From positions 62,001 to 126,000 of the forward strand of contig NZ_ANBM01000001.1 in NCBI RefSeq assembly GCF_002100115.1: a stretch of DNA of 64,000 nt, in the 5' to 3' direction. Below are positions 30,434-32,207 of the stretch, one piece after another. The DNA comes from Anaerovibrio sp. JC8 (GTDB lineage Bacteria; Bacillota; Negativicutes; Selenomonadales; Selenomonadaceae). Position 1 is the stretch's first letter, and every line of letters starts with the position of its first letter. The translations under genes were made by a program, and so were the position numbers. Below the pieces are notes generated by a model, which was not told the origin of the DNA, ran no database searches, and saw only the letters and a list, made by a program, of their open reading frames with translations.

Positions 30434-30534
30434 AAGATGCCTCCTAAAAAATCAATACAATTGATTATAACACTATAAGGCGTCCAAAAAAACAATTTAA
30501 TTTTACCAATATCCCCTTTAAAGCCATAAAAACA

Positions 30535-30563
30535 TTGACGAATAGCGGGTCTGGTAGTAATAT
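30535..30563 (+). promoter_or_regulatory. Sigma-A type promoter of the corA leader
   Basis: TTGACG (30535-30540) and TAATAT (30558-30563) are separated by 17 bases. The predicted start near 30570 gives a leader of about 218 nt before corA. This and the next two features fill the 354-base gap between 30434 and 30787. Confidence 0.7.
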
Positions 30564-30634
30564 TTTAATGGTCTGATACAACAAAATTATATAGGACATT
30601 TTTAAATTTTAAATGAAAAGTTGGTGAGGAAAAA

Positions 30635-30730
30635 ATGGATACAGATTATCCTAGTCCGGAACCCCCGGGTAAATTAACAAAAAATACTGAAACCGTATCC
30701 CTTTTATCCTGCCATTATTTTATATTCTAA
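30635..30730 (+). CDS. Candidate 31-codon acidic/proline-rich leader peptide of corA
   Basis: ATG at 30635 follows GTGAGGA by six bases and opens a frame starting MDTDYPSPEPPGK and ending at TAA 30728-30730. The first eleven residues hold three acidic residues and four prolines, a composition like that of enterobacterial MgtL (MEPDPTPLP...), whose acidic/Pro start destabilises ribosomes at low Mg2+. It stops 25 bases before the hairpin over the corA ribosome-binding site. Leader function is inference; the gene is too short for database-independent proof. Confidence 0.5.
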   Translation: MDTDYPSPEPPGKLTKNTETVSLLSCHYFIF

Positions 30731-30754
30731 GGTAATAGTAGTTCTTTAAAGGCT

Positions 30755-30787
30755 TATGGTTTCTTTCAAACCGAAAGGAGTACCATA
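30755..30787 (+). promoter_or_regulatory. Hairpin enclosing the corA ribosome-binding site
   Basis: TATGGT (30755-30760) pairs with ACCATA (30782-30787) directly before the ATG, and CTTTC (30763-30767) pairs with GAAAG (30773-30777). The AAAGGAG of corA lies partly in the inner stem and partly in the 4-base internal loop, so the fold would limit ribosome access. Seen directly in the sequence; regulatory effect is inferred. Confidence 0.55.
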
Positions 30788-31741
30788 ATGCTCAAAATTT
30801 ACAAATCCCACGAGAATGGTCCTCTCTATGAGTTAAGCCTGAAAACCCTGGAAAATGGTGCCTGGATTAACATTGTGGACCCTACCCCATACGAGCTGAA
30901 GGTAGTGGGCAATCTCACCGAGGTTGAGCCTGACTTTTTGCGTTCAGCCCTTGATGATGAGGAGCGTTCCCATATTGATATTGAGGACGACAGTGTCATG
31001 ATTTTGACCAATGTTCCTGTTATCAGGGAGGAGGGTGGCTACGATACCCTGCCTCTGGCCATCATTGTTACCGAGGACTATATCATTACCGTATGTCTGG
31101 AAGAAACTCCCGTGCTTTCCTACTTCAACGAAAAGAATGCCCGCTTCTTCCGCACCTTTAAAAAGACAAGATTCCTGTTTCAGATTCTTTATCGTTCTGC
31201 CACCTTTTATTTGAGCTATCTGCGTCAAATCAGCAAGCAGTCCGATGAAATTGAACGTAATCTGCGTCATTCCATGCGCAATCAGGAAATTCTGAAGCTG
31301 CTTGAATTACAGAAATCCCTGACATTCTTTAACGCTTCCCTCCGTTCCAATGGTGCGGTGCTGGATAAGCTTATGCGCCTCAGGACCAATTCCTCCATGC
31401 AGCCCATGCTGAAATATTATGAGGAGGATGAGGACCTGCTGGAGGATGTTATCATAGAAAACAAGCAGGCCAAGGAAATGGTTGAGATGTACAGCAAAAT
31501 CCTTGCCCGTTTGGCAGATACCTTCTCCTCCATCATTTCCAACAACTTGAATCAGGTCATGAAATTTTTGGCGGCAGTCACCATTTTATTGGCTATCCCA
31601 ACAGTAATTTCCAGCTTCTTTGGCATGAACGTGCCTGTGCCAATGTCTGAAAGCTCCTGGGCCTTCAGCTACATTTTCGGCATTGCCGGTGTACTGGTGG
31701 TTATCTGCGGCTATCTGCTGTGGAAACGGGATATGTTCTAA
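30788..31741 (+). CDS. corA: CorA family magnesium transporter
   Basis: A 317-residue CorA-type divalent cation channel. The large cytoplasmic domain with long helices (KQSDEIERNLRHSMRNQEIL) is followed by two C-terminal membrane helices and the signature GMN at 279-281 that forms the selectivity filter. The C terminus has basic WKRDMF. It is preceded by a strong promoter, a candidate leader peptide and a hairpin over its ribosome-binding site, suggesting control by magnesium or translation state. Two small genes follow on the same strand. Confidence 0.94.
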   Translation: MLKIYKSHENGPLYELSLKTLENGAWINIVDPTPYELKVVGNLTEVEPDFLRSALDDEERSHIDIEDDSVMILTNVPVIREEGGYDTLPLAIIVTEDYIITVCLEETPVLSYFNEKNARFFRTFKKTRFLFQILYRSATFYLSYLRQISKQSDEIERNLRHSMRNQEILKLLELQKSLTFFNASLRSNGAVLDKLMRLRTNSSMQPMLKYYEEDEDLLEDVIIENKQAKEMVEMYSKILARLADTFSSIISNNLNQVMKFLAAVTILLAIPTVISSFFGMNVPVPMSESSWAFSYIFGIAGVLVVICGYLLWKRDMF

Positions 31742-31758: not shown

Positions 31759-31989
31759 ATGGCCACAATGACTGAATCACAATTACGGGCCGGGGTAATC
31801 TTTGGCGACAACGAAACCGCCGAATATGTCTACATGCCAGCCAGCGAGCTGGGAGTTGCCCACCCCGTGTGCGTATATGAATATGAGTCCCGCCGGGATG
31901 ATATGGATCTGGAGGAAGCCATCAGGACCATCCGGCTCCGCAGCCTCCGGCCTACTGCCCATCCCCGTCTGGGTAAAACTTCATGCTAG
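31759..31989 (+). CDS. Small protein of unknown function downstream of corA
   Basis: A 76-residue protein starting MATMTESQLRAGVIFGDNET, with no membrane helix. AAAGGAGG lies 6 bases before the ATG at 31759, which supports translation. The central part is acidic (ESRRDDMDLEEAIRTIRLRS) and the C terminus basic. I do not recognise the family. It is followed after 16 bases by a Phd/YefM-like antitoxin, so the two may be a unit, but no toxin motif is visible. Confidence 0.6.
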   Translation: MATMTESQLRAGVIFGDNETAEYVYMPASELGVAHPVCVYEYESRRDDMDLEEAIRTIRLRSLRPTAHPRLGKTSC

Positions 31990-32005
31990 GAAAGAGGTGT
32001 TATCC

Positions 32006-32179
32006 ATGATAGCTGTTTCATCATCAGATTTTCTGAAGGAATTCACCATCTATGCCGACAAGGCCAACGATGAGAAGGAAACCATATTTGTTCAACGGGC
32101 CAGCGACAAAAACCTGGTGGTAATGTCAATGGATGCCTACAACGAAATACAGAAAAAATTATATGAAAAACAAAAATAG
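32006..32179 (+). CDS. Phd/YefM-type antitoxin, orphan
   Basis: A 57-residue protein with the Phd/YefM pattern: an N-terminal strand-helix (MIAVSSSDFLKEFTIYADKA), a beta hairpin with ETIFVQRASDKNLVVMS and MDAYNEIQKKLYE. The ATG at 32006 follows AAAGAGGTG. The usual RelE/YoeB/Doc toxin gene is not present downstream; a bidirectional terminator follows at once. The C-terminal toxin-binding region is short. It may be a remnant or may act with the upstream unknown gene. Confidence 0.75.
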   Translation: MIAVSSSDFLKEFTIYADKANDEKETIFVQRASDKNLVVMSMDAYNEIQKKLYEKQK

Positions 32180-32207
32180 ACTGCAAAAGCAGTCTATTTT
32201 TTTATTT
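32176..32207. terminator. Bidirectional intrinsic terminator
   Basis: Stem ATAGACTGC/GCAGTCTAT (32176-32184 with 32189-32197), loop AAAA, then TTTTTTATTT on the plus strand and TTTTTGTTTTT on the minus strand. It serves the corA group from the left and the histidine kinase from the right. Confidence 0.9.

Follow-up and report, generated by a model that had tools for sequence, protein, structure and literature searches.

The window, as we call the whole 64,000-nucleotide (nt) stretch analyzed here (Anaerovibrio sp. JC8, contig NZ_ANBM01000001.1, positions 62,001 to 126,000), carries a corA gene behind a short leader open reading frame (ORF), with RNA that can fold into three overlapping stems. 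Judged from sequence comparison, it is close to certain that these features form a conserved, selected, and corA-linked leader with alternative stems, which we propose below to be a translational attenuator of corA. The features, including the Shine-Dalgarno (SD) sequences of both frames, are as follows.

30535..30563, + strand: promoter TTGACG-17-TAATAT (consensus scan, 9/12 match)
30623..30629, + strand: leader SD GGTGAGG, within stem P1
30635..30730, + strand: leader ORF of 31 amino acids (aa), SD-preceded, MDTDYPSPEPPGKLTKNTETVSLLSCHYFIF
30638..30655, + strand: codons 2-7 (D T D Y P S), the conserved acidic/proline start, from the ratio of nonsynonymous to synonymous differences (pN/pS)
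30622-30642 (leader SD and start) with 30695-30714 (leader tail), + strand: stem P1 (region 1:2), z −2.13, 5 of 200 shuffles as good
30689-30697 with 30755-30763, and 30700-30704 with 30748-30752, + strand: stem P2 (region 2:3), z −5.85, 0 of 200 shuffles as good
30754-30767 with 30773-30779 and 30782-30788, + strand: stem P3 (region 3:4), −12.3 kcal/mol, z −3.65, 1 of 200 shuffles as good
30774..30780, + strand: corA SD AAAGGAG (sequence)
30788..31741, + strand: corA, 317 aa (PF01544, E 1.1e-47)

An earlier note on this DNA had described a 17-bp-spaced promoter, a 31-codon frame with a ribosome-binding site (RBS), and a hairpin at 30755-30787 over the corA AAAGGAG. All three were recovered, the promoter though with 9 of 12 consensus positions, and the hairpin at 30754-30788 (z −3.65), where it encloses the corA SD and extends into the ATG at 30788.

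The leader ORF and its spread in Negativicutes

The combination of leader SD and start, GGTGAGG-N1-6-ATGGAY, occurs once in the window, with 0.04 expected by chance, and five times in the 2.68-Mb genome versus once in the reversed control. Two of the other four genome sites begin ORFs of 86 and 61 aa, another sits within a 1005-codon open frame, and the last (MDCDVG, 6 aa) overlaps an open frame of 221 codons at that frame's start. Among the first 25 leaders with any upstream match, the window's included, 19 had TTGAC[G/T]-17/18-TAATAT. The −10 element of the window is surrounded by AGTAATATTTTAATG (30554-30568), and in 23 of 101 leaders AGTAATAT, there longer than a bare −10 element, recurs no more than 150 nt before the leader ORF.

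For comparison, 110 loci with a CorA relative yielded 93 unique upstream regions, to which 86 further regions were added from 85 genomes of a 150-genome sample of the class (all but two of them from families other than the window's, with upstreams taken from part of the genomes within each sampled family), making 179 in total; CorA itself was present in 131 of the 150 genomes. A scan blind to codon 2 asked for a GGTGA- or AGTGA-type SD and then a start codon that opens a frame of at least 12 codons ending before corA. Of the 179 corA upstreams, 112 contain such an SD-preceded leader ORF, with the SD patterns picked from leaders already known and the first candidate used in the seven upstreams that held more than one. 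Codon 2 of these 112 leaders was Asp in 106, Glu in three, and another residue in three (acidic in 109), and for L096, one of the three non-acidic cases, the scan had picked a start codon that lies in frame two codons before the usual one. The opposite-strand control of the same scan gave 3 of 179, none of them acidic.

Dropping L111 and those leaders that end less than 15 nt before corA, and merging those at least 95% identical, reduced 118 leaders to 101 non-redundant ones. They are 22-49 aa long and stop a median of 47 nt before corA (range 28 to 201 nt; 57 nt in the window). Ninety-one start with MDxD or MDD (three with E for D2), 84 of these having Pro at codon 6 or 5, and some Anaerovibrio leaders read MDAGPEP; at least two acidic residues fall in codons 2-5 in 92 of the 101, a set selected with D/E at codon 2. 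The fixed part of the leaders is acidic at codons 2 and 3/4, then Pro, with codon 5 (or 4) variable (Arg, His, Tyr, Thr, and others). At the nucleotide level, GGTGAG was invariant or at least 90% conserved in alignment A2, which comprises 48 of the 67 sequences of alignment A1. The set-aside L111 (genome G158, of the window's family) is a reduced leader, MDDPPRSK..., whose start lies 46 nt upstream of corA and which overruns the corA start in another frame; its leader SD region AGGTGAGCTC appears complementary by eye to its corA SD region GAGCTCGCCT, so that direct start-start pairing could occur.

Peptide-level selection, as read from these codons, is mainly at the leader start, codons 2-6. 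There, pN/pS in frame was 0.44 in the MDxD group (49 leaders), compared with 0.98 and 0.73 in the other frames, and 0.38 in the MDD group (42 leaders), compared with 0.78 and 1.87, from pairwise counts that are not independent of relatedness. Membership of these sets had required D/E at codon 2 (in the 86 further regions also an acidic residue or Gly at codon 3/4), and codon 2 is therefore judged by the blind scan alone. Over codons 8-14 the in-frame values, 0.89 for MDxD (other frames 0.91 and 0.89) and 0.74 for MDD (0.97 and 1.21), indicate little or weak constraint. The Asp4 codons of the MDxD group were GAC in 35 leaders and GAT in 14.

Taxonomically, a covariance model of the P1 region matched 60 of the 150 class genomes (63 matches), of which 59 matches lay at most 400 nt upstream of corA on the same strand and one at a contig end. 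Three weak matches away from corA (E 0.002-0.004 over the 150 genomes) were considered as the element before other genes and taken as chance. The matches spread over 15 of the 33 class families listed for the sample; the model was built from members of the matched families, and it hence tests linkage and copy number, not presence. The leader was recognized by eye in three more families (f7, f19, and f22), and none was recognized in the examined upstreams of f4, f6, f15, f16, f20, f25, f28, f29, f32, f33, and f34, which make up 11 of the class sample's 29 CorA-bearing families. Outside the class nothing was found: the model matched two of 119 phylum genomes, both in the window's own family.

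Two sets of corA upstreams differ from the rest. Nine from Selenomonadaceae/Selenomonadales, mostly ruminant, are leaderless (L056, L059, L060, L062, L063, L068, L075, L077, and L078, with L059 and L060 from one assembly), and some of them have promoter-like sequence near corA by eye; these are possible losses of the leader. In contrast to the leader-bearing corA, five CorA genes or paralogues (L191, L193, L194, L195, and L196) follow a shell-protein-like gene and have no MDxDxP leader; we take the preceding gene to resemble the microcompartment shell protein EutN/CcmL.

Three overlapping stems upstream of corA

Structurally, the leader tail (30689-30710) has two possible partners, the leader SD and start (P1) and the segment ahead of the corA SD (P2), and this pre-SD segment can in turn pair with the leader tail (P2) or with the corA SD (P3), such that P2 has its 5′ arm in common with P1 and its 3′ arm in common with P3. 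P1 and P2 overlap by at least 4 nt in 100 of the 101 leaders. When arms were swapped among 60 leaders, z reached −12.7 for P1, −16.1 for P2, and −10.7 for P3, whereas control pairings were not weakened (z −1.0 and −0.3). Because the leaders are related, the swapping was redone as double cycles on disjoint nearest pairs, picked by identity and not by tree, in three settings, the third with pairs at most 80% identical. Cognate arms won 29:8, 32:9, and 37:9 for P1, 33:16, 35:15, and 42:6 for P2, and 24:9, 27:12, and 27:16 for P3 (one-sided Wilcoxon p in the first setting, over 50 disjoint pairs, of 1.3e-5, 1.6e-4, and 3.3e-4 for P1, P2, and P3, respectively), and three control pairings were non-significant save that of leader start with corA SD in one setting. 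In a model-fitted alignment of the 63 matches, which leans toward the structure, P1 scored 0.287 for covariation and had 42 double-changed cells, where sliding it gave maxima of 0.136 and 14; four of five covariation measures beat all 500 shuffles, and the fifth, pairs changed on both sides (5), was matched by 72 of the 500. Comparison across leaders therefore supports P1, P2, and P3 as covarying and mutually exclusive stems.

One of the earlier note's own refuting conditions, a frame and hairpin pairing without conservation in related genomes, did not occur: both turn out to be conserved (leader in 112 of 179 upstreams, P3 pairing 24:9, p 3.3e-4), and the acidic and proline codons are constrained (pN/pS 0.44 and 0.38). 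On these sequence comparisons the note's observation is confirmed, and is larger than noted, with a leader standing before corA in much of Negativicutes. Its one-hairpin mechanism stands in part: the hairpin is real, and it is one of three overlapping stems, P1 and P2 having gone unseen, which points to the 1:2/2:3/3:4 anatomy of an attenuator and not to ribosome completion acting on a single hairpin.

The downstream product matches PF01544 with 163.3 bits (cut-off 27) and contains FFGMNVPV, with the GMN motif that we take to be the CorA hallmark. It is the single CorA match in its genome (E at most 0.001), and its nearest named relatives, among the best 80 of 211, are all Anaerovibrio, at 97-99% identity. 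The genome gave no match to MgtE or to the M-box riboswitch RF00380, for which a control search matched Bacillus subtilis and Lactococcus lactis, and all eight MgtA matches (TIGR01524) were under the cut-off (top 269 versus 610.75 bits). It does encode ribosomal protein bL31. No tRNA was found near corA, and no terminator-like site of the intrinsic type on the + strand of 30535-30788 (Rho sites were not assessed). The Rfam scan of the window had no match at gathering score, a permissive scan of 30450-30900 returned just three sub-threshold microRNA models (E up to 5), and 20 corA upstreams (19 leaderless by the leader scan plus L112) had no Rfam match. Divergent from corA, on the minus strand, lies a gene for a VTT-domain membrane protein (PF09335, 29729-30433), presumably DedA-like. 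An ORF within 31802-32201 holds a PhdYefM-like antitoxin stretch (PF02604, 23.5 bits, under the cut-off) and ends at a terminator-like stem of 13 bp (32172-32201), where both strands have T-runs.

Ribosome position and the signal

The 101 leaders were folded in three states: without a ribosome, with codons 1-8 blocked (early), and with codons 17-28 blocked (mid). Accessibility of the corA SD was tried first as the readout of a switch, proved weak and, in the window, absent, and was followed by stem probabilities. Ribosome-free, the latter averaged 0.69 for P1, 0.36 for P2, and 0.57 for P3; the early block gave 0.77 for P2 and 0.37 for P3, and the mid block 0.25 and 0.60 (P3 early versus mid, p 8.6e-12). 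The window sequence gave P2 1.00 and P3 0.21 with the early block, and P2 0.30 and P3 0.83 with the mid block.

We posit that the corA leader is a cis-acting translational attenuator run by its leader peptide. Its region 1 would be the leader start, region 2 the leader tail, region 3 the segment ahead of the corA SD, and region 4 that SD itself. The leader being translated, as we infer from its sequence, a ribosome retained on the opening codons (Asp2, Asp4 or Asp3, Pro6 or Pro5) would cover region 1, leaving region 2 to pair with region 3 (P2) and releasing the corA SD, whereas one running through codons 17-28 would cover region 2, upon which P3 would form and hide the corA SD. Without a ribosome, P1 and P3 would be favored on the family average, though not in the window's own sequence. 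On the modeled folds, then, an early ribosome should open corA and a ribosome on the tail should close it. The signal would most likely be low cytosolic Mg2+, with pausing or abortion on the early codons as the presumed event, since acidic and proline codons right after initiation slow or destabilize ribosomes at low Mg2+; this choice of signal follows from the gene controlled and from the effects of acidic early codons in E. coli and Salmonella.

Several results weigh against this reading. P3 was higher in the mid than in the early state in 63 of the 101 leaders and the reverse in nine, and in the ribosome-free window P2 (0.72) exceeds P3 (0.28), with P1 at 0.25, unlike the family average, so that for the window the folding does not yield the closed resting state that the model expects. 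The accessibility of the corA SD moved little (means of 0.32 free, 0.36 early, and 0.29 mid, with shuffled controls at 0.38 and 0.44), shifted as predicted by over 0.2 in 24 of the 101 leaders and the opposite way in seven, and was flat in the window (0.15, 0.15, and 0.17, respectively); a ribosome at the leader stop gave an openness of 0.35, equal to that with an early ribosome. A clean drop-off would empty region 1 and could let P1 reform, and pausing or rapid re-initiation therefore fits better than pure abortion. Column covariation (G-test with average product correction, tree-based null) in MAFFT alignment A1 gave one significant pair, in P1, an alignment that by eye loses the register of P2 and P3, for which reason alignment-free tests were used; in these, the control of leader start with corA SD reached p 0.012 in one setting (0.064 and 0.16 in the others). 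The conservation of CCT AGT after the acidic codons is partly at the nucleotide level, within P1 in several folds, and these codons may be kept for P1 pairing instead of for the peptide. Sixty-seven of the 179 corA upstreams have no SD-preceded leader ORF by the blind scan. The CorA score for the NCBIfam equivalog TIGR00383, 112.3, is below its cut-off of 200.75, which leaves the transported ion uncertain.

Taking both sides together, control of corA translation by ribosome position on the leader appears likely. Mg2+ sensing through ribosome failure on the early codons is our best guess from the analysis, held with moderate confidence, and we lean to the same degree toward the combined proposal of a cis-acting, leader-peptide-run translational attenuator of corA with low cytosolic Mg2+ as its most likely signal.

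The leader-peptide switch could instead answer any slowing of early elongation (shortage of an amino acid, of elongation factor P, or of an ABC-F factor, antibiotics, or general stress), since the RNA anatomy says nothing on the signal and in E. coli early acidic codons are sensitive to the ABC-F factor EttA (in the available part of PMC11282234). We regard a signal other than Mg2+ as rather unlikely: the fixed acidic codons 2 and 3/4 followed by Pro are not a single-amino-acid run as in biosynthetic attenuators, and the leader is linked to a CorA channel gene. Less probable still is direct sensing of Mg2+ (or Co2+) through the folding of an RNA element, with the short ORF a by-product of the conserved RNA. 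Three covarying stems would suit such a sensor, and the corA motif of gamma-proteobacteria has been proposed as a riboswitch (PMC6429828, available part), but codons 2-6 tolerate synonymous over amino-acid change, the other frames less so, Asp and Glu exchange at codon 2, and no Rfam model matched at gathering score. Constitutive translational coupling, in which the leader merely helps ribosomes reach corA without any signal, might be read from the short distance between leader stop and corA (57 nt here, median 47 nt), yet we consider it improbable given that the gap ranges from 28 to 201 nt, that on average the ribosome-free P1 covers the leader start (0.69) and P3 the corA SD (0.57), and that the alternative stems covary. 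A chance ORF and hairpin, for which the promoter match, weak by itself (9/12), could be cited, is scarcely credible beside the class-wide conservation of the leader, the constraint on codons 2-6, the covarying stems, and an SD-and-start pattern expected 0.04 times per window.

Returning to the attenuator with Mg2+ as its signal, its implications reach beyond this locus. Negativicutes are a large group that includes gut and oral species, and the mechanism would supply a control for the corA of many of them, where our searches found none described. If it is true, sensing by intrinsic ribosome destabilization would exist outside Proteobacteria, its destabilizing motif having arrived by convergence at acidic codons in positions 2 and 4. 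Leaders that destabilize ribosomes through acidic codons would then be a convergent way of reading Mg2+ and no enterobacterial peculiarity, and the 101 non-redundant natural leaders, whose acidic codons are almost fixed while their tails vary freely, would open the sequence rules of destabilization to direct tests. The broadest form of the proposal, that Negativicutes, independently of enterobacteria, evolved a widespread ribosome-based Mg2+ sensor in which an MDxDxP leader fails in early elongation at low Mg2+ and works an RBS switch at corA, the window's genome being without an M-box, we put forward tentatively, with less assurance than the attenuator itself.

Comparison with known leaders

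Mechanistically, the closest parallel is Salmonella mgtQ-mgtB, where an RBS is uncovered, rather than MgtL, which acts by Rho-dependent termination. The available part of PMC8092293 describes 1:2 plus 3:4 versus 2:3 stems in mgtQ-mgtB, with the RBS in 3:4 and control at translation, and early acidic codons in mgtQ, Asp2 and Glu5. The Negativicutes leader resembles it in its short ORF, its early acidic codons, its 1:2 plus 3:4 versus 2:3 stems (by computation and covariation), and a 3:4 stem that conceals the RBS of a gene for a Mg2+ transporter. Unlike mgtQ, an 8-aa ORF between mgtC and mgtB, it is a 5′ leader before corA, of 31 aa in the window and 22-49 aa overall, with its own SD and start inside stem 1:2. 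The Negativicutes leader would thus work like mgtQ, and is no orthologue of mgtQ or MgtL.

The MgtL peptide is 17 aa long. Its early acidic codons, Glu2 and Asp4, form an EPDP motif (PMC11282234, available part), and the likeness lies in acidic codons 2 and 4 with Pro (MDTDYP in the window) in the leader of a Mg2+ importer gene (PMC11282234 and PMC11552253, as far as their available parts go). Unlike the Negativicutes leader, MgtL, in the same available parts, exerts Rho-dependent control of transcription on a PhoQ/PhoP-driven gene for a P-type ATPase, whereas the downstream gene here is corA. Of the parallel with MgtL drawn in the earlier note, the EPDP-like start (MDTDYP) therefore holds, and the closer mechanism is the RBS uncovering of mgtQ-mgtB.

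Kriner and Groisman reportedly wrote in 2015 on the corL-corA leader of enterobacteria. Enterobacterial corL is a leader ORF that controls corA via Rho-dependent termination, and E. coli corA responds to Mg2+ (PMC11552253, available part). The two share a leader ORF before corA, alternative RNA structures, a leader SD inside a stem, and, for corA, expression opposite to leader translation; corL differs in its Rho-dependent termination, its fewer acidic and proline residues, and its UUG start (all from the available part of PMC11552253). We found no support for kinship of the Negativicutes leader with corL: Rfam scans gave no link by RNA family with corL or the corA motif (whose presence in Rfam 15 was not checked), and the corA RNA motif is described, in the available part of PMC6429828, only from gamma-proteobacteria and metagenomes. 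The earlier note knew of no described case for CorA in Negativicutes, and none is among the literature matches listed; in enterobacteria, corL-corA is known (PMC11552253, available part). What is new is thus the Negativicutes family of corA leaders, leader control of corA being already known from enterobacterial corL.

In other Firmicutes, the M-box riboswitch RF00380 controls Mg2+ transporter genes; unlike the Negativicutes leader it is a ligand-binding RNA with no leader peptide, and it is unmatched in the window's genome. With trp-type attenuators the leader shares a 1:2, 2:3, 3:4 logic set by ribosome position, and it differs from them in having an RBS-hiding stem in place of a terminator and no single-amino-acid codon run; mgtQ has itself been compared with attenuators of this type (PMC8092293, available part). 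In evolutionary terms, the Negativicutes corA leader appears to have arisen independently as a counterpart to the Mg2+-sensing leaders of Salmonella and E. coli.
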